From assembly GCA_035235625.1 (NCBI GenBank), contig CP141140.1, positions 7,460,685 through 7,524,684 on the forward strand: 64,000 nucleotides of DNA, given 5' to 3'. This document shows positions 5,080-58,400 of this stretch, in pieces. The position numbers and the translations under genes were made by a program. Within the stretch, counting starts at the first letter, position 1, and each line of letters begins with the position of its first letter. The notes under the pieces are model-generated. The model made no database searches. It was not told where the DNA came from and worked only from the letters and a program-made list of their open reading frames with translations. This DNA comes from Saururus chinensis. Taxonomy: Eukaryota; Streptophyta; Magnoliopsida; Piperales; Saururaceae.

Positions 5080-6572
5080 ATGGAAGCCCTCACAAAGGCT
5101 TTTTCAGGTTTCAAAATAGGGTCTCAATATTCCTCTTTGACAAGGTTTTTTCTTTCTAATAAACTAAGACTATGATGGTTGCTCGTCCATGAATTGGGTT
5201 ACAAGGAATTCGGCTTTTCACGGACCTTCATTGTTTCAGAATTGGGGGTCACTGGCCCGTTTAATCAGTTGTATTCCTCTTCCTTTCATGGTGAATTAAT
5301 CTGCTGAATATTTTGGCTAATGCAGGATTTGGGGTTGATGAACATTCCATCGTCTCCCTCTCGGCACAATGGCGTCCGGAGCATCAGACTGAATTCAGGA
5401 AGAGTTGCCCGGAATTCTTCAAAGAAGATGAACGGCTCTTCTATAGGTGGGACGTTCGTCATATTGCCAAGCTCAAGGCCGAATTCTCCCGTTTTAAGGT
5501 CGACTTCTCCTCTCTTTGTGATTGTACAAACTCTCTCAATTGTACTAATCAGTATTTGCATGGTGTGTTATTTGATTAATGGTCCTAATTGTTCGTGTAG
5601 AAAGCTGCGGTGCTATGGGCAATGCATCCATGGGAGAGAGACGCTCGGTTCGCGAACGAAGCGATTCACAGAGACCCATCTCTTGACCTTCTCGTCGAGA
5701 TCTCCTGCACCCGGTCGTCAGAAGAGCTCCTGGGTGCAAGGAAGGCCTACCATTCCCTCTTCCACCACTCCCTCGAAGAAGACCTCGCTTACCACGTCCA
5801 CCACAACAGTCGCAAGGTAAGGAAATTTGGATCTGTTCTTGAGAATCAATCTGCTTCTTTCCTTTAGTTGCTGATTACATGGACGTCCTTGAACAGCTCT
5901 TGGTAGCCCTGGCGAGTTCTTACAGGTACGAGGGCTCGTGGGTTAACGAGCAGCTGGCGACATTGGAAGCCGAGATTCTAAATAAAGCCATCAAGGACGG
6001 GGCTGAGTCTGAAAAGCCAGTTGAGAATGAGCATGTAATTAGGATATTGAGCACGAGAAGCAAGTTGCAGCTGAAACTCACATTTGATCGCTACAAGGAA
6101 AAATACGGGACTGCCATTGACAAGGTACGAGCAACAAGACCCTCCTCACTCCGATTTAAATTTGAGCCCCACCATTGACGATCTAATACATCTTAATCAT
6201 CAGGATGTGGCCGATGACTTCATATTAAAAGCAACGATTCAGTGTCTATACTCACCTGCAACCTATTTCAGTCAGGTGAGATCGCAAGGCCATCCAATAT
6301 ATCACTCTCTCACCCTGACAGGTCTAAGTTGTTCTTTATGTCAAAAATGCTTTATTTGGTTTCAGGTTCTTAATTTGGCCCTAGGCGCTGGTGCGGATGA
6401 GTCGGCGAAGAAAGCTCTAACACGAGTGGCCGTGACCCGAGCTCATGTGGACATGAGGGAGATCCAGGCTGAGTACAAGGAACTGTATGGATGTTCTCTT
6501 GCCGACAAGATAGCGGAGACAGTGTCCGGCAACTACAAGGGCTTTTTGCTCGCCTTAATCAGAGAAGTCTAA
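5080..6572 (+). CDS. ANN4: Annexin D4-like protein with degenerate calcium sites
   Basis: Six exons: 5080-5107, 5326-5498, 5601-5816, 5897-6124, 6204-6275 and 6366-6572, encoding 307 residues. The first exon has only nine full codons, MEALTKAFS, and the ATG is the first one after the TATA box. The segment VLWAMHPWERDAR and the segment EISCTRSSEELLGARKAYHS match Arabidopsis annexin 4. The type II calcium motifs are altered: repeat I reads GFGVD (10-14), repeat IV reads GAGAD (246-250), and the acidic partner of repeat IV is Asn295. Calcium binding through these loops should therefore be weak or absent, as in the annexin 4 subgroup. It is transcribed away from the annexin D3-like gene. Confidence 0.94.
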
Positions 6573-9780: not shown

Positions 9781-11442
9781 CTATGTAGAAGTTACATCCA
9801 AACGTGCGGCAAGGCTCGTAAGGTTTCGTCGTCTTTTGATGCGAACCGGAAACCCACCTTTCATCTTCAGAGTGAGGGAGAGCGCGTAGGCAGGGGTGTC
9901 ATCCATCCCGCCTGGGCCTGCTCTTTCCAGCTCGAACCCCTGTACGACCGCTACAGCCACTGCCTTCATCTGGAGATAGGCCATCTCCTTCCCCAGACAT
10001 GCCCGCGGCCCGGCGTGAAACACTGGAAACGTGGACGGATCCGCCGGTACGAACGCCCCCTCATCGTCCAGCCACCTCTCTGGCACGAACTCGCGGCAGT
10101 CGGGGCCCCAGACCTTCTCCATCCTCGCCATTGCGTACGCCGAGTAGTCCGCAAACCACCCCGCCCTCACCCGCGTCCCGTCCGGCAGCTCGTCGTCTGC
10201 TACCGCCAGCCTCGAGTTTATCGGCACCGGCGGATACAGCCGCAGAGACTCAGATATCGACGCCTGAAGGTAGTTCATTCTCTTTAGCTCCTCGTACCCC
10301 AGGACCAAATCGCCTTCTTCCCCGAGTCCTCCTAGTGTCCTCCCCGCGTCTGACGCCGTTTTGAGTATCTCTTCGTAAATCCGCCTCTCGCATCTCGGAT
10401 TGGTTGAGAGAAGCCAGAAAAACCATGTCAAAGCCGTCGAGGTGCTGTCCTTGCCGGCCAAAATGAAGCTAATGATAATGTCTCTCAAGAAATTTCTCTT
10501 TCGTAGCTGGTATTCTTCAGAATCATCAATAACCTCTTGCCCTCCGTGTGCTTCTTCCGAGTAAATGTCTCTGAATCTCGATAACAAGTCAAGCTTCTCG
10601 TTCTCCTTCCCATCATCCTGCTTTTCTTTTGAGATTATGATTTTCATGGCGTACTGATTGATGTTTCTGATGGCCTGCCAGAGACACCTCTCGGACCCGA
10701 CGTTGAGAATCCTCTTTGCCTTCCAGACCCACGGCAGGGGGGCTAAGAATCTGTCAAAACAGATCTCCGTGGCTGCGTCGAAATCGTGGAAGAACGGCTG
10801 CGGATCGTGGCAGATTTCGTCCGTGGGTAGCCCCAGACAAGCGGGGTCTTCTCCGAACGCTACGTTGCAGATGTTGTCGAATGCGAATCTGCGAAAAATA
10901 TCGTCGAGATCGACTACAGAACCGGAAAGGGCGGCTGAGTGGAGGGCCGGGAGGAGGCGGGCTGTGATCTCGGAATGGACAACATCGGCGATGAAGGAGC
11001 GGAGGGAGCGCGAGCTGAACTCATGGCTGGCGATTTTGCGTTGGCGAGCCCAGAGGAGGCCGTCGGCGTTGAAGATGCCGGAGCCGAGGAGGTCGGAGAG
11101 GACGGCGTGGAAGCGGGGTCCCTTGACGTAGTTGGGGAATTCGGATCGGAGGAGATGGTCGACGTTGGCGGGGAGGGCGGTGCAGACTCCGGGGGTGGCG
11201 AGGAAGGGGGTGCAGACGCGGATGGTGCAGGAAGGGGTGGCTGCGAGCAAGTCGGAGACCCAGTCGAGAAAGCGGTGGCGGTTGAGGACGAGGGCGACAA
11301 GGTTGCCGATGAGCGGGTAGGCGGAGGGCGCCGGGGTGTGGGAGGTGGAGCTGCGTCGGTCCAGGGCGGAGTGGATGTAGAAGAAAGAGGCGCAAAAGAG
11401 AGAGAGGATGAGGAAAGACAGGATAAGAGCTCCCAGATCCAT
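9781..11442 (-). CDS. Cytochrome P450, CYP94 family-like fatty-acid/jasmonate hydroxylase
   Basis: A single uninterrupted exon encodes 553 residues; CYP94 genes are typically intronless. I chose the ATG at 11442 because it starts a membrane anchor (MDLGALILSFLILSLF); an upstream in-frame ATG at 11565 would add 41 polar residues in front of it. Landmarks include the SRS1-region HEFSSRSLRSF, the I-helix AGKDST (329-334), ESLR of the K-helix (398-401), PERW (454-457) and the haem loop FHAGPRACLG (475-484) with ligand Cys482. CYP94 enzymes sit in the ER and omega-hydroxylate fatty acids or, in the B/C branches, inactivate jasmonoyl-isoleucine; the exact substrate cannot be told. It is about 40 residues longer than usual, mainly at the C-terminus. 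GC content is very high at the 5' end and lower toward the 3' end. Confidence 0.93.
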   Translation of the reverse strand: MDLGALILSFLILSLFCASFFYIHSALDRRSSTSHTPAPSAYPLIGNLVALVLNRHRFLDWVSDLLAATPSCTIRVCTPFLATPGVCTALPANVDHLLRSEFPNYVKGPRFHAVLSDLLGSGIFNADGLLWARQRKIASHEFSSRSLRSFIADVVHSEITARLLPALHSAALSGSVVDLDDIFRRFAFDNICNVAFGEDPACLGLPTDEICHDPQPFFHDFDAATEICFDRFLAPLPWVWKAKRILNVGSERCLWQAIRNINQYAMKIIISKEKQDDGKENEKLDLLSRFRDIYSEEAHGGQEVIDDSEEYQLRKRNFLRDIIISFILAGKDSTSTALTWFFWLLSTNPRCERRIYEEILKTASDAGRTLGGLGEEGDLVLGYEELKRMNYLQASISESLRLYPPVPINSRLAVADDELPDGTRVRAGWFADYSAYAMARMEKVWGPDCREFVPERWLDDEGAFVPADPSTFPVFHAGPRACLGKEMAYLQMKAVAVAVVQGFELERAGPGGMDDTPAYALSLTLKMKGGFPVRIKRRRNLTSLAARLDVTST

Positions 11443-11565
11443 GGCCACAGTGACTCGGATCACTGGAGTCTGGAGACCTCGGCCACTTCGTCTTCTAGTG
11501 TTGCTTACCAGGTCCTGTGAAGCTAGCTGAGGACGACTGTCAAGTTTGTCAGTTGTAACCACCAA

Positions 11566-12472
11566 ATTTGAATTATTTAATACGCTGACTTTTCACAAGC
11601 TTGTCGATTATGTTTTTTAATTTTCAAACTCGTCGATAATTTTAAATTTTCGGGAGTGAAATATATTAATATTTTTTTATTAAATATTCTTTCCATCATT
11701 TAACTTTTTTTGTTTGAGCAAAAACTTTTGGTTAAGAGATATTAATAAAATAGCCATAAAATAAACCCGCGTAAAGGGAAATTAGCTTATTATACTTTTT
11801 TGAAGTACCTAATTATTTAAATAAAATAAAATAATACTATTAATATAGAATAAATTTTTTTAAGAGACAGGGATAGGGGTATTGTAATACAAAAAATATC
11901 ATCAAATGTTTTTATTTTTACATTCCTTTTGAAAGCTCATATATTTATATTATTCTTATTGCTTGCTCTATAACATAAAACAATTAAAAACCGAAAACAA
12001 ACTTAGGAAGAGCACATAAAATGCGATCTATGAGGATTGACTCCGTTATGTATTTCGATCACAAACTATTAATCTTCAGTTACAAAGGCAAAAAAAGGTT
12101 ATTGAGTTATGGAATGTGAATGGATGAGTAATTAGGTAAATTATAGAAACCTATGGAAAAGGGTGTACCCGTACGCTACCCGGTTAATAAATGGGTAAGA
12201 AAAATTACCAATATATTTTATCTATTACCTAATTATTAATTACGTGCCCATAAATTTTTTTTATCGTGGGATCAGATGAATTAGGTAAATGACTACCCAT
12301 TAGTGGGTGAATGAACCCAATAAAAGGCAGCTCGAGCTTAATGGTGTCAAAAACGTTATAATGAAAACATTTTAATACCCAATGAATTGGCTGGCCTGCT
12401 GCACTTATGCCTCTGGCTCACAAATCGAATTGCCCAAGGAAAGACAAAATCTGTATAATAATTGGTGCTTAG
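11566..12472. other. AT-rich 5' flank of the P450 gene
   Basis: This holds the P450 promoter on the minus strand and otherwise AT-rich intergenic DNA. I see no other gene. Confidence 0.5.
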
Positions 12473-20075: not shown

Positions 20076-23000
20076 ATGCGAGGACTCTGCCTAGCATTTC
20101 TTTTAGTGAGTTCTCTCACTCAATTCCCATTCCTATTGTCTGATGAAGAAAAGTCAATCAGTTTCGCATACAATGGCGGAAAGATCATCAGTCAGCCAGC
20201 TACTGTAGCCCTTCTTTGGTTTGGTGATGGATGGCATGAATCTAGGAGAAGAGTTCTGCTTAATGCAATTGCTTCCCTTACTAGCAATGATAACATGACC
20301 AGCAATTCAGAGTTTCCCACGTTGAGAGATTGGTGGAAGATCCTTGAGCAATATCAAGGTAGCTCGGGGAGGCATGTCACAAGCAGCGTGAAACCTGGTC
20401 CAGAGTGCTTCTACACTGGTCCGAACCTCAACATGACTCTGAACAAAGTGATGGAGATAGCCAAATCTGTGTTTAGTTATGCTTCAATGAATACCTTTGC
20501 TGGGAACTTAAGCTGTAGCCGGCCGTTTCAGATTAGTGACAACACAGTCTACATCGTTGTGTTCTCAGAGTGGACGACGTTCTTCACAGCAAATGACCAG
20601 AGAGATTTGATAAACAGTTGCAGTGGGGATCTGGGGGAATTTGAGGTGTTTCATGGAGAGAAGGTGAGGATGGGGTGGGCGAGGGCTGCGGCCGCTCAGT
20701 GTTTGCAGATTTTTGACAGTCATTCCTATCTTGGCCCTCCAAATGGGGATGAAAAGTTAGACAGTTTGGTGAGTTATACTCTGGCCAAGATTGCTGAACA
20801 TGTTACTAATAGGGATGGACGAGGATGGAGTGCTGTTATTGGTGGGAATGAATTTAGCGTAAGCACTGTATGTGCTTATATTGAGACAGAAGAGGAAGCC
20901 TCTCCTCTGTTCTGGGACGCAGAGAAGAGAACGAGCTTCAATGCGGTAGGACTTAAGGGTCAGAAGTACATGGTGCAACATATATGGGACCATCAGATAC
21001 AGAACTGCGCAATGAAGCTTTCAGGTATTGATCAATCATTAGCGTTCCTGGCTGGGTAATTGCATATGCATGAGAAGTTTGTTTTTGCACTTCTGCCCAA
21101 ATTTTTTTTAGTCTGTATCAAGACAAATGAGCTCAAATTATGTGGCCCAATGTTTAATCTCCAGATATGATAAAATAGTTTACTTTCATGCTTTAAAATG
21201 GCATGATCGAACGCATTACGGTAGCTTATTATCTTTCAAGTGTATATCGGAATAAATTTCAGCTCTCCCATTTATTGGCAAGCTGATGAATCCCCAAAAC
21301 AATTTTCTTGTACTTTGTAGAACCTTGTGGAGCAGTGGCCATTGCACTCACACAGCCAAAAGGATATCTGAGAGCAGGAATTTCAGTAAATCACACTGCA
21401 GGTCTTCAGCCTTATCCACCAAACGAGAAATGCCAGTGGAAAATTCGCTACTCATCAGCGAAATTCATTACCTTCACACTAAATTACCAGTCAATTACGA
21501 ACAATGACAATCTCAAAATATGCAGAGATCCAACAGCTGACTGCACTATTGTTCAAACATATGATGAGAATTCTCCAACAAAATTCAAAATTACTGGTTC
21601 GTCAGCATGTGTTGAATTTACCAGTGCTCATCATGTTTCACCTCAGGCCAGAGGCTGGGAGCTTAGTTATTCAGCTGGTAAGTTAATGTTCCTTCTATTA
21701 TTGTTGATAGAAGCCTTATGTTTGTTTTGGGAGCATGCTCAACTCCTTTTGGCCCTGAAATTTTTCAGGCTTTTGTGATGGCAAAGTAGACATATATGAG
21801 AAAGTTGGTATCATCAGCTATAGCCCACCTCCTGGTTCTTCTTATGTAGAAGGGCTAAGCTGCCAATGGATACTACATGGGAAGCCAGGAACTCCTGTCT
21901 TATTGAGCTTCACCCACATTAACACCTCGAAAGACTTGGACTTCGTAGCAATATACAGAGGCACGGAACAGCAGAGATTGAGCCAAGTCAGTAACTTTTC
22001 TGGTTTATTCTCGAAATTAACTCTTCCCCGACTAAGTTTAACAGGTGAGATTATGATTCTCTTCACCACTCAGACTGACCAAGGTAACGGCTGGTCGGTC
22101 GATTTTCGCATAATATCCCCCGTTGCAAGGAAAAAATCTCCTTTACTTGTCTCAATTCAAGTATCAGCAGCCGTCTTAGGTGGTGCTTTTCTTGTCCTCT
22201 TTCTGTTGGCCTTAATAAGACTGAGAACTAAGGTACGAAGTAGATCAAACACGAATGAGACATTGAAGCTTTTGAAAGTTGAGATAATTGAAGAAGACAA
22301 ATACCTTGGAGAAGGCCCTTCATCTTTAGTTCACAGAGCAGTTCTACCTGATGGAACTGCTGTTGCTGTGAAGGCCAAGAAGGATTTAAATGCGAGTACC
22401 AACTTGGAGGAGGCAATTCTACTGAAAGCTTCTTCCCATCAAGACATTGTGACGCTGCTAGGATTTGCTTATGGTAGATCTGGGGAAAGGCTTTTAGTGT
22501 TTGAGCTGATGGGCAGAAGCAGTTTGTGTTGGAATCTGAGAGAGAGGGGAGAATGTCTGAGTTGGGAGCAGAGACTGGAGATAGCTTTCCAAGTCTCTTC
22601 GGCTCTTCAGCTGCTACATATGTTCTCCAAACCACCCATACATCATGGCAATTTGACATCAGAAAATGTGCTTCTGGATGAGTATTGGAACGCAAAACTT
22701 GCCGGCTTTGGGAGCTCAACCTTCTGCAGGATAGATGGGCGGAGCTCGGAGTGTCACCTGGAAATGGCAGCAGATATTTTCAACTTGGGGGTACTACTTG
22801 TCGAGCTTCTAAGAGGTGAGATTCAGCTCGAAAGAGCCCACATTCCTGGGCTTCTTGATGAGATGACTGAGAATCTTGGTACCAACCAGGGCCTTGATCC
22901 ACGGTTAGAGCTTCCTGAGGAAGACTACAGGATCATGGGGTTGGCAAAGTTGGGTGAGGTAGCGAAGTGGTGCATTTGTGATTTGGGAGTTGGTGAAGAC

Positions 23001-23081
23001 CACATTATTCCAAAGATAGGTGAGGTTGTGCTTGGTCTGAAACAAGTCAAGCAATTGTTCAGTAATTCTGGTATAAGCTAA
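20076..23081 (+). CDS. Receptor-like protein: EXORDIUM domain, two CUB domains, TM helix, pseudokinase
   Basis: Three exons (20076-21024, 21321-21677, 21769-23081) joined by phase-1 GT-AG introns give 872 residues. Residues 1-22 are a signal peptide. Residues 26-316 are an EXORDIUM/PHI-1 domain (VALLWFGDGW, the RDWWKIL tryptophans, PNGDEKLDSLVSYTLAKIAE, FNAVGLKGQKY). CUB1 spans about 318-433 with YPPNEKCQW at 348-356; CUB2 spans about 438-551 with GLSCQW at 464-469. A TM helix lies at about 561-585, then an RLK-like kinase fold at about 614-860. The ATP lysine is kept (VAVK, Lys637), but HRD is HGN (728-730) and DFG is GFG (748-750), so phosphotransfer is unlikely. NxS/T sequons dot the ectodomain. 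Introns fall exactly between domains, fitting exon shuffling. It probably acts at the plasma membrane as a wall- or ligand-sensing scaffold; the ligand is unknown. Confidence 0.88.
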
Positions 23082-44574: not shown

Positions 44575-47500
44575 TGTAACGCCCGAGATTTTTCACACAT
44601 TTTCCTCAAAATTCACGGAAAATTTTTGCAATATAATGTCTGTAAATCGGAGTAAAAATGACGAAATCAAAACCTGATAAAACAGTTTATAATTCAAAAC
44701 ACTAAACATCCAATTTCCATCCAAATATTTTCATCACACGGTCAAACATCGTACGGCCAAAGCAAATATCATCAGGCGCTACTCGAAAACACACGTACGA
44801 CTAAATTCGCTATGATCATAGACTTTAAATACAAAACACTCCCATGCATCCCTGAGTGCAAGTCCCATAACAGTCCACAGACTAATCCAAATGAAAGTCC
44901 AGAATAAACATCTTAATGTCTCGTCTCACCAAATACATCGGATCGTGGCACAAATAAACTCGCAGTGAGTCAAGCATATACCTGAGTCAACGGGAATCAA
45001 TCCTCCGCTGAAATGAGCATCCATCTCCAGGAGCTCTCCAACACACACCTGCAAAAGCCTCCCGAACCACGGGGCTAAAAAAATGGTAGGGTGAGTATTT
45101 TCATACTCAGTAGGAAAATACCCAGTAGGGGAAATCCCAAACGGTGAACTCAATAAGTTCATAAGTACATGCGTTCATGCAACTCAAACATGAAGCAGAT
45201 AGGCAACAAACATCATGCTCATACGCATACTAACATACCAAATGCACCATCGTGCCAAAGTCATACCAAATGCACCATCGTGCCAAAAACATACTAAAAG
45301 CACCATCAAACAAAACTTACACAAACACCCTTATCCAGGGTCTTACAAACTTACTCGTACCATCGTACGCATACTCATACAACATACGCATACTTATACG
45401 ACCTTACTCGTACAATCATATGCTCACTCATACAACTTACACATACCTGTACGACCTTACTCGTACAGCTTACACTTACTCGTGCGACCTTACTCGCACA
45501 TCTTACACTTACTCGTGCAACCTTACTCGCACATCTTACACTTACAGTCTTACTCTGAAACTTACACTTACAGTCTTACTCTGAAACTTACACTTACAGT
45601 CTTGCTCGGATTCAAATGCTTACAGTCTTACTCTTACAATCGTACTCATACTCTTACAGTCGTGCTCATACTCATACGGTCGTACTCATACACATACTCT
45701 TACAGTCATTCTCATACACATACGCTTACAGTCGTTCTCAAACTCATACTCTTACAGTCGTGCTCATACTCATACACTTACAGTCGTACTCACACACATA
45801 ATCGTACACATACGCATACTATCGACCGCTGAAGCTCATTACAACTAATCAGCTCTAGCGTCGAGATGGAAAAGAATGCCACTAGGGCAACACCTTAACC
45901 TCCGGGGAGTGACTAGACGCCATGGACTTTTCCGAAGGTAAGGCACACCAGTGCTCATGGGGCACAGGATCAAACAGGTAAGAGTAGGTCCATGATACTA
46001 CTTACCTGAGCGCGCAAACATACACCCACACATAAGGGGTCATACAATTGCCCACACATAAGGGGTCTTATAGTGCCATACAATTGCCCACCATAATGGG
46101 TCTTATAGTGCCAGTGCCACTCTTGGGCAGAAAAACATACAGTGCCACTTGGGCAGAAACATACAGTGCCACTCTTAGGCAGAATCATACAACGCTCTCA
46201 ACAGAGCATCAAACGTCTGGGCTTATACAGCACACAGACCAAATCGGAAACATACGTCGCTCTCAACAGAGCAAAAGACGTCCGGTGCTCTACACAGCAC
46301 ACAGACAACATCCCGCAAGATAACCACCATGGCAAGACATGATAAATGCTTAGCCGACTCATTATCGGCTAGCTCAAACACGGAACTTAATCCGTCAAAC
46401 CCTCAGGTCTCAAACTCACAACGCTATCATTAGCTGTGCTTATAATTCAAGTTTGAATTAAGTACATTATGCGGTATAATTATGCCACACAAACTCACAG
46501 TCCTCGACTGATCAAACCGATGCTGAGCCTGATCGAAACCCTAGTTCGTCAGGGTAGCAGACTTCGCTTAATCCATCCATATCATGATCAAACCTCACCG
46601 TACAACGAACCCTTACAGTCTTACATACTTAGCCATCTACCTTATGGCCAAAACATCGTACACAAATGTCATCACACTAAGCTCCTCAAAGCCAAACCCA
46701 GTTGTCGCCCTCTTACTTAATACCTCACTGATTATGCTTACTTTTCGCTTCATAATGTGTACGTTATGCTTGTACAATTATGAACACTCTTACTATCTGA
46801 CAATCGCCCAACATACAATCCAACCCAAACCGATCCCTTCTAATCCTTGCCCGTCATACTCTTATCCTCTGTCATCTGCCATACGCTTACACAACCGTAT
46901 CCAAATTCAGACAAAACCTCTGCAACCTCTTACTTTCCATCGCCCATACCTCTGCCCACATACACTTACACATATCCATACCATAGGCAAAAAGCCATCA
47001 TACATACGTATGTCTCCCACATACGTATAACATACACATACGGTCATACATACGTAACTTACAAACATGCTCACTAGCCATTACTAGGGCATACATCAAA
47101 CATACACGCTAGTCATCACTAGCACATGCACACACATTCATACATACTTCAACATGCACGCTAGCCATCACTAGCACATACATACATCCAACGTACTTAC
47201 AACCAACATGCATGTCATATGCATTTCAACATACCATACAATCGTGCTTACACATACATCATGCAATCAGATCGTTACATAACATCCATAGCATGAAATC
47301 ATACAATCCTAGCATGCTACTACTCATTCAAAGCATGCTATCATGAATTTACGAGTTCAAAGCTCCCCTACCTCGTAATCATGACGTTCGATGGCAAGCA
47401 CACGACGGTGGCGGAGTTGGCGGCCAAAAGCTTTGCCAAGTGGAGAGAGCTGCTGTCCCGAGGATTTTAGGAAGCGCCGGAACTAGTCACGGCCAAACGG

Positions 47501-55465: not shown

Positions 55466-58400
55466 ATGGATTTCGAAGAAAAGCGTAGCACTCCGGAAGT
55501 GGTAGTGTTGGATTCCCCTCTGAAAGAGAACGCATCCGAAGCTGGTGAGCTTGTGAATGAGCCTTCTCCCCTGGTGACGAAGCTCAGTGCCACGGTTATT
55601 AACGGTGTCCGCGAGTTATTGGAGTGTCCCGTGTGCTTGAGTGCGATGTACCCCCCTATCCATCAGGTTTTTCCTTCTTGCCGCATAATTTATTGTCTTG
55701 TTCATGAGAATTGTTTTGGGACATTTTTAAGTGCGTTCTCATCTTCTAGTTGTCCTCCTCATCACTTTTTACAGTAAAATGTTTTTGCATTTCTATACTG
55801 CTGTTTTGTATTGCAAATAAATGTCTGATGTATGTGTTGATTATGTAGGGGGAGTCACAGGCTGCAGATGATTTTAATTTATTTGTGTATATATATAGGG
55901 AACTCGATCTCATGGATCTGTTGGATCCTTCTCATATGGTCTTTTGACTGGAACGGAAAGATCCACTTTTAAAATGTAATAAGTATGGTCTACTGTTCCA
56001 CGCATATGATCTTATTAAGACTATGCTTGCCAATCTGCCTCTTCCATTGGATTGTGCAAAAATATCTTTTTAAAGACTTCAATTGTCATTTGCAACCATT
56101 TTTTACCCCAATACTTGTGGAGGTGGGAAGGCTTGGGGGGTGGGCAGGGTTATTCTACAGAGCTTAACATGGGAATGGTTCCCATATATTGGTTGAAAAT
56201 CAAGTAAAATGATGTTCAGGCAAGAAAGTTGCTAATGTGTTTTGGTAATGGTTACTTTGTGACAAGGTTATCTAAAGCGCCAATTTGGCTCTACCAGGAG
56301 ATAGATAATGATGTTGTTGCGTCTTTAATGGGTTTGCGAGTGAGTTGTGCTAGAAGATGATCAATAAATTAATATACATCATTGCAGCCATATGTTTTGC
56401 ACATGGAATGTGAGATGAAGGAGATAAACGAAATTGATGCTTGGTAGCAATTGTCTATATCACCTGTATCCTTGTCTTTCATATGCTTAACTTGGGTGCA
56501 GATTAATTGTCGAGGTAGATCAAAGTTAAATTTTTTGTTGTTAACGAGAATTTAGGTGAATTAATTGGAACAAGTATGATCTTTAGCTGTTATCTTATAT
56601 AGGATTGGTGTGATTTGATGAGTTACAAAATATTGAAATCTAACACTATAGTTATTTAGATTGGTGAGAAGATTAAGAGTTCATAAAGGGTAGCTGTCTT
56701 TCCTGTGCAACCCGTCTATTTATGGGTTCTTCTGGGTGGTTAATGATGCCTTTGTTCATCTTGTCTTCCACTTTTTGCTATGTATGCGGTCTATTTCTGG
56801 TTCTTATAGCATATGATATTTATATCATCATCCTTAGATTAGTGAATGCGCCTTGACCTGTATACTTGTTTCCTTCATTCTTAGGATATTTATATCATTG
56901 TACTTAGATTAGTGAATGCACTCTCAATGCTGTCTTTTTGTTAGTCAAGCAACTCTTGGATTATTACAAATACAAAATAGGTTTATGTGAGAGTACTTGA
57001 TGAGCTTGTATACATGGTATACTATGGTTGTTTAATTATTTTTCTTCCTTGGTCAATTTCAGTGTTCAAACGGCCACACTATATGTTCTGGATGCAAGCC
57101 TAGAGTGCAAAACCGGTGTCCTACATGCAGGAATGAACTTGGAAATATACGATGTCTTGCTCTAGAGAAGGTGGCAGCTTCTCTCGCGCTGCCATGTAAA
57201 TATCAGTGCTTTGGTTGTGTGGGTATATACCCTTACTACAGTAAACTAAAGCATGAATCACAGTGTAGTTACAGACCATATAACTGTCCATATGCTGGTT
57301 CTGATTGCACTGTTGTTGGAGATATTCCTCATCTAGTGGCCCATTTAAAAGATGAACACAAAGTAGATATGCACAATGGTAGCAGCTTCAACCATCGCTA
57401 TGTCAAGGCAAACCCACATGAGGTCGAGAATGCAACATGGATGTTAACGGTAAACTTCACTTTTTGTTGCCATTGTTGTGTACTTGTGTTTGTACTTCAG
57501 GCCATTTACATTGTTCTACTTTACCGGGATTTGCTGGCAAGCTTTATTTAACTGGTTACTTCCTTCTCTTCGATTGATAGTTGTACCTTGAAAGCTCCTT
57601 AGATCCATGTCAATTTTGATGGGAGACCTGCCGAAACCTGTATACATTGTTTAGAAATTTCCAATTGTGGTACTAGGAAATTTACCAAATTATGTCATAT
57701 TCTACCTTGAGGAATTCTGCAAATAGTTATTTATTAGTAATCAGTTGCTGTTTAGTATTTGATTTCTACTTATGTGATGCTTGGAGTTAAGTTATTTTGT
57801 GGTGGATCCTTGAATTTGGTGCGTTTGGATATTTGCACTTCTGAATCTGTAATGATTTAAATCAAGCATCTGTTTTCTTGATCGCACCATTTGCATGGTG
57901 TTCATGTTCTTACAGGTGTGGTCCTAAGTGCTCAATACCTACACGTTGTTAAAGTCATTGACTCTCTCAGCTTCAAAGTGTTCTTAATAATTTGAAGTAC
58001 TCTGAGCAGAATTCTGTTATTTTTAGTTGCTACTTGTTTTATTCTGTATTCAACTAAAGAATAAACTTTTTGTATGCAAGTTGATTTAATTTTTCAAAAT
58101 GGTGCTTGTGCTTTGTATTCGTAAGAATAATATTTAAGACCATGACATCTTAATTTGATTTTTGATAAATGTAAAAAAGGAGCATGCTATTGGTTTAGCA
58201 GAAAAGCACCTATTTATGAGACCTAGCAATTCCATTCCTTACCCATGATAAAGAAAAGATGAATCAGTTTGCAGCTTTCCTAGTTTTGAACGAATGTTCA
58301 CAATTTAATTGCAACCCACCCCACACTTGACATCTCATACTTGCTGTATTTCTTGATCATAATTCTGAGGGCAGTTTTGAGGCATTTTCTGGCATTAGTT

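Follow-up and report, generated by a model that had tools for sequence, protein, structure and literature searches.

A predicted receptor-like pseudokinase with an EXORDIUM and tandem CUB ectodomain in Saururus chinensis and other angiosperms

The subject of this study is a gene of Saururus chinensis located at positions 20076-23081 (+ strand) of a 64,000-nucleotide stretch of DNA (contig CP141140.1, positions 7,460,685 to 7,524,684 of the forward strand), which was analyzed as a whole and is referred to as the window. Its three predicted exons (20076-21024, 21321-21677 and 21769-23081) join into an open frame of 2616 coding bases, and translation of these coordinates gave 872 amino acids and a stop codon, with no internal stops. 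The encoded protein consists of an EXORDIUM (Phi_1) domain, two CUB domains, one membrane segment and an RLK/Pelle-type kinase (RLK – receptor-like kinase), in this order, with each part above the Pfam curated cut-off. The matches for the whole protein were: Phi_1 (4.5e-22), PK_Tyr_Ser-Thr (1.2e-17), Pkinase (3.9e-16) and CUB (4.5e-16, in two stretches). A scan against NCBIfam returned kinase matches alone, all of them far under the cut-off. An earlier note, made from the sequence of the window, had proposed the same domain order with its coordinates, and both were borne out by the spliced translation, Pfam and hydropathy.

Exon 1 encodes a hydrophobic N-terminus (approximately residues 1-22, by hydropathy) and the EXORDIUM domain (approximately residues 30-312, the start being taken from the alignment with P0001, one of the relatives described below). 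The Phi_1 score was 79.2 bits for the whole protein and 83.7 bits (1.8e-23) for exon 1 alone, with a cut-off of 25. The match in exon 1 comprises two stretches, the better of which spans residues 216-312 of 316, and in relatives the profile is covered nearly completely (positions 2-274 of 276 in P0001, residues 30-312, and 1-274 in the Amborella protein). Intron 1 (21025-21320, +; phase 1, GT-AG, GTATTG...TTTGTAG) follows residue 316 and separates this domain from exon 2 (21321-21677, +), which encodes CUB domain 1. After residue 435 comes intron 2 (21678-21768, +; phase 1, GT-AG, GTAAGT...TTTTCAG), and exon 3 then encodes CUB domain 2 (21769-22130, +; approximately residues 437-552), the transmembrane segment (22137-22235, +; residues 559-591), and the juxtamembrane part and RLK/Pelle pseudokinase (approximately residues 609-868) with the stop codon (22236-23081, +), the last of these being supported by alignment, Pfam and fold matches. 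The ectodomain contains six N-glycosylation sequons (at residues 73, 119, 144, 340, 487 and 511).

When Pfam was run exon by exon, Phi_1 ended at residue 312 of 316 and the two CUBs were found in different exons, so each intron is only a few residues away from a domain edge; the earlier note had placed them exactly between the domains. The same note saw in them the signature of exon shuffling. This is partly supported, as the full signature holds for CUB1 alone, which occupies a symmetric 1-1 exon, while CUB2 shares its exon with the transmembrane segment and the kinase, and no intron follows it. Four relatives carry 28-47 extra residues at the two junctions of the window gene in the alignment (P0021 and P0032 after residue 316, P0026 and P0027 after residue 435), which may be translated introns of unspliced gene models. 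A tblastn search found no second copy of the family within the 64-kb window.

Both CUB domains were recognized separately, each passing the cut-off of 21.4 bits, which upholds the earlier assignment of residues 318-551. Exon 2 alone matched CUB with 36.5 bits (6.7e-9, profile positions 16-110 of 110) and also CUB_2, under the cut-off of the latter, and exon 3, over its first 360 bases, matched CUB with 33.1 bits (7.6e-8, positions 1-110 of 110). CUB domains, binding modules known mainly from animals, have two conserved disulphides. In the family alignment, CUB1 has four conserved cysteines (C319, C354, C384 and C391) and CUB2 one Cys pair only (C438 and C467). CUB2 also retains acidic residues at D493 (31 of 31 sequences) and D539 (Asp in 26, Glu in 3 and Gly in 1 of 30), positions that probably correspond to the calcium ligands of animal CUBs, and calcium-dependent protein binding by this domain is therefore worth considering.

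Searches of PDB with both CUBs led to animal proteins. A single-sequence search gave cubilin (3e-5), enteropeptidase (8.9e-5) and PCPE-1 (9.8e-4), with Kremen not significant (0.13), and a profile search gave cubilin (2.9e-12, a whole-chain value, none of its stretches reaching 0.01 by itself), PCPE-1 (4.6e-6) and neuropilin-2 (1.3e-4), as well as enteropeptidase and TSG-6. The tandem CUBs of the receptor thus match those of cubilin, PCPE-1 and neuropilin-2 by profile, but only over the CUBs, and its CUB2 differs in the single Cys pair. In the full-length model of the Tetracentron orthologue, the CUB1 core (residues 351-430) reached a predicted local distance difference test (pLDDT) value of 68-85 per ten-residue block, and in a model of exon 3 CUB2 (first 110 residues) reached 72-92. 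PCPE-1 was ranked 47 in the Foldseek list for the full-length model (254 columns, TMt 0.39, root-mean-square deviation 11.0); as the TM-scores are low and the deviation is large, the two CUBs appear to be arranged unlike those of PCPE-1. The CUB identity of both domains holds at the sequence level, and the fold is supported by the predicted models.

One internal membrane segment, as claimed in the earlier note, separates the ectodomain from the kinase. Hydropathy placed it at residues 559-591, and the model of exon 3 showed a helix spanning residues 124-159 of the exon (560-595 of the protein). In the kinase part, the beta-3 lysine (Lys637 of VAVK) is kept in each of the 31 aligned sequences that include the domain, and both catalytic aspartates, claimed by that note to be lost, are indeed absent throughout: HRD is replaced by HGN (residues 728-730), with Asn in place of Asp in 31/31, and DFG by GFG (748-750), with Gly in 30 sequences and Arg in one. 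The protein is therefore a receptor-like pseudokinase by prediction, its inactivity being deduced from the loss of both residues. The catalytic-loop Asn and His are invariant (31/31), and 25 of 30 rows retain the P-loop GxG. Compared with three leucine-rich repeat (LRR) RLKs, the activation segment is shorter by about 18 residues. The invariant Lys, His and Asn, and the fact that some predicted pseudokinases of other families proved active, could favour an atypical active enzyme, transferring phosphate or nucleotides by a route independent of both the HRD Asp and the DFG Asp, yet the loss of both aspartates in every sequence and the shortened activation segment make this highly improbable. The closest folds of the kinase part are of the RLK/Pelle type, with SYMRK, NFR5, BRI1, FERONIA, BIR2 and IRAK4 at the top of the match lists.

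The distribution of the family was assessed with two protein-database searches, which scored the best 7997 and the best 7993 candidates, respectively, and all family counts refer to these. The first search gave 19 proteins and the second, with a profile, 44 matches, of which 34 (P0001-P0034) were counted as members of the family or parts of them and 10 as other kinases. In the precomputed Pfam column, Phi_1, CUB and kinase are all present in 21 of the 34, of which 20 come from named angiosperm genera: Xanthoceras, Acer, Liquidambar, Nyssa, Dipteronia, Prunus, Tetracentron, Ziziphus, Pistacia, Ilex, Camellia, Actinidia, Hevea, Trema, Asimina, Rhamnella, Dioscorea, Quillaja, Amborella and Punica. 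A Pfam rescan of the Amborella, Dioscorea and Asimina proteins found all three families in each. Judged by sequence, the family spans Amborella to core eudicots, and the reservation of the earlier note that a homologue might exist in databases was thus justified. In a tree of 23 sequences the window gene adjoins Asimina (support 0.946), and with the root on Amborella the order is Dioscorea, then the window gene with Asimina, then eudicots. This broadly taxonomic order suggests vertical inheritance, in which case the fusion would date back at least to the divergence of Amborella from other angiosperms. Among the best 7997 and 7993 candidates, no family match bore a name from Brassicaceae, Poaceae, Solanaceae or Fabaceae, and no gymnosperm, fern or moss name was present; gene models vary, and absence is unproven.

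A separate profile search for plant CUBs, built on 12 tandem-CUB sequences, covered 2466 candidates of approximately 0.55-1.75 times the length of 241 and required shared 5-residue words. It gave 10 matches at E ≤1, which align at 41-57% identity to CUBs of the EXO-CUB receptor family and, given this identity and their domains, are probably members or fragments of it. No other plant CUB protein was present among the 2466 candidates, distant ones being beyond the reach of a search by 5-residue words.

The relatives, or parts of them, are named in databases as "hypothetical protein", "cubilin-like", "Wall-associated receptor kinase-like", "receptor-like protein kinase 7 isoform X2" or "Phosphate-induced protein", and the layout is not conveyed by any of these names. 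Some gene models are unusual. Those of P0006, P0012 and P0016 start with an unrelated segment of 150-200 residues with an RKAL-DITNKS motif, which is securin-like and probably represents a fused neighbouring gene (a synteny check for it in the window gave no convincing match, the best E being 1.1). In P0033 and P0034 (Acer negundo), the EXO part of the family is annotated together with Gnk2/DUF26 (PF01657), which may be a mis-join or a second fusion. Extensions such as those of P0006, P0012 and P0016, and the decayed or mis-modelled appearance of P0028, could lead one to regard the whole architecture as an annotation chimera of separate neighbouring genes, or as a decayed copy. Against this stand the uninterrupted frame with its GT-AG introns, the recurrence of the domain set in at least 21 proteins and the four apparently unspliced relatives, which place the junctions at the same residues, and such an origin is scarcely credible.

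A description of this layout was not found by full-text literature searches (subscription papers and preprints were outside their scope, and most matching papers were judged from their listing alone). The consulted passages of a receptor survey of 350 species (PMC10834447) do not name an EXO-CUB ectodomain, the single match to "cub" lying outside them, and those of PMC3310802 and PMC12382012 contain nothing on an EXO-CUB-pseudokinase layout. Several apparent matches were set aside: of the papers combining "CUB domain" with "receptor-like kinase", those consulted concern, in their passages, the split-ubiquitin Cub or human CDCP1; in polyphenol oxidase papers "CuB" was taken, from titles, as copper site B; and the peach Rm2 paper mentions EXORDIUM and pseudokinase separately. 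The receptor family is conserved and apparently undescribed within the literature covered. What appears to be new is the combination in the ectodomain, whereas the RLK/Pelle chassis is already known.

With EXORDIUM and EXORDIUM-LIKE proteins (PF04674) the receptor shares the hydrophobic N-terminus and Phi_1, the profile of which is matched almost completely in several relatives, but its continuation into a CUB pair, a membrane helix and a kinase fold is not the soluble-type layout. According to passages of PMC13103426, EXO/EXL proteins are secreted to the apoplast, single exo mutants have no conspicuous phenotype, and sextuple and septuple exo/exl mutants have shorter, stiffer organs and a reduced growth response to brassinosteroid. 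For the receptor, the link with brassinosteroids and carbon status mentioned in the earlier note would be borrowed, by analogy, from these soluble proteins. A receptor with an EXO domain on its outer side would offer a way to learn what EXO binds.

A receptor pseudokinase may pair with an active kinase, as NFR5 does with NFR1, or it may sequester a co-receptor, as BIR2 does with BAK1. At about even confidence, we propose the first mode for the window protein. It would be a single-pass receptor-like pseudokinase of the plasma membrane, whose EXORDIUM domain and two CUBs form an external sensing or docking part, probably directed towards the cell wall. When this ectodomain binds a component of the wall or some secreted protein, the pairing of the intracellular domain would change, and the dead kinase fold, as a binding and allosteric platform, would bring in a receptor kinase that is catalytically active, as NFR5 does with NFR1, probably with a positive direction of signalling. 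The likeness to NFR5 has its limits: NFR5 has a LysM ectodomain and keeps the HRD Asp in the alignment, whereas the receptor has Asn there and no LysM match in Pfam at E ≤0.1. A dead kinase kept at the conservation level of the ectodomain from Amborella to core eudicots would be a clean case for non-catalytic receptor signalling.

The second mode, in which the pseudokinase would hold a co-receptor kinase such as BAK1 until released by a ligand, is rather unlikely. It would agree with the Foldseek list for the exon-3 model, where BIR2 (4l68, E 9.6e-16), at rank 2 among the 50 entries listed, precedes all others titled as pseudokinases; it competes for BAK1 according to passages of PMC10868138. 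For the full-length model, however, the highest-ranking pseudokinase is human IRAK3, and equal fold scores are given by further pseudokinases as well as by active kinases. BIR2 has an LRR ectodomain, and the receptor has no LRR match in Pfam at E ≤0.1. Moreover, the nucleotide pocket of BIR2 is blocked (passages of PMC10868138), while the family retains GxG and the lysine at the frequencies given above.

Quite improbable, too, is a kinase left over as a structural or trafficking remnant, in a protein whose function would lie in anchoring the EXO-CUB ectodomain to the membrane or in shedding it into the wall. Animal CUBs often bind other extracellular proteins, and the transmembrane and juxtamembrane part is poorly conserved (mean pairwise identity of 0.32). 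The secretion of EXO/EXL relatives to the apoplast (passages of PMC13103426) also agrees with such a tether. From a pure tether drift would be expected, but the kinase part has a mean pairwise identity of 0.60, with Lys and Asn invariant.

Recruitment of an active kinase by an EXO-CUB pseudokinase has to be weighed against several observations that do not favour it or that disturb the tidy picture of the family. Fold matches do not part active from inactive kinases, as SYMRK, IRAK4 and BRI1 score like NFR5. The full-length model of the Tetracentron orthologue is weak (mean pLDDT of 54.9), with CUB2 poor in it (41-58 per ten-residue block), and the CUB and EXO folds were hardly probed, the PDB fold lists being filled by kinases. 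The sensing of the wall rests on the family name, since passages of PMC13103426 describe what EXO proteins do biochemically as unknown. At the HGN position P0014 has HRN and Amborella HAN, and P0010 has a PPE triplet in the segment in which the canonical APE is considered missing. The Amborella and Asimina proteins each have one CUB stretch, not two, passing 1e-3 alone; in P0018 (Castanea) CUB1 is short of about 20 residues, and no CUB was matched at 1e-3. No CUB is present in the precomputed column for P0025 and P0028; in the latter there are also large gaps in CUB2 and at the N-terminal end of the kinase, and a membrane segment is not visible, oddities which may be due to bad gene models or decay. 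Finally, the tree is only broadly taxonomic, with odd placements of eudicots, e.g. Punica.

More tentatively, and with clearly less confidence than the pairing itself, one may imagine a family of plant CUB receptors dating from the ancestor of living angiosperms, which would sense the state of the wall or a secreted protein through EXO and tandem CUBs in a neuropilin-like docking, would signal only by allosteric pairing, and would have been overlooked since the usual model plants appear to be without it.

No match was obtained when the window was scanned for Rfam families and tRNAs. Outside the receptor gene, the window contains a long cytochrome P450 frame (9781-11592, −; Pfam p450 2e-52) with no evident intron, an exon of a SINA-type E3 ubiquitin ligase (57036-57551, +; Sina_ZnF 4.4e-29) and annexin-matching frames on opposite strands (2134-2580, −, and 6075-6572, +), perhaps representing two annexin genes. 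A long open frame at approximately 45203-45832 (+), with low-complexity repeats rich in Tyr, Ser, His and Thr, is likely a tandem repeat and not a gene.
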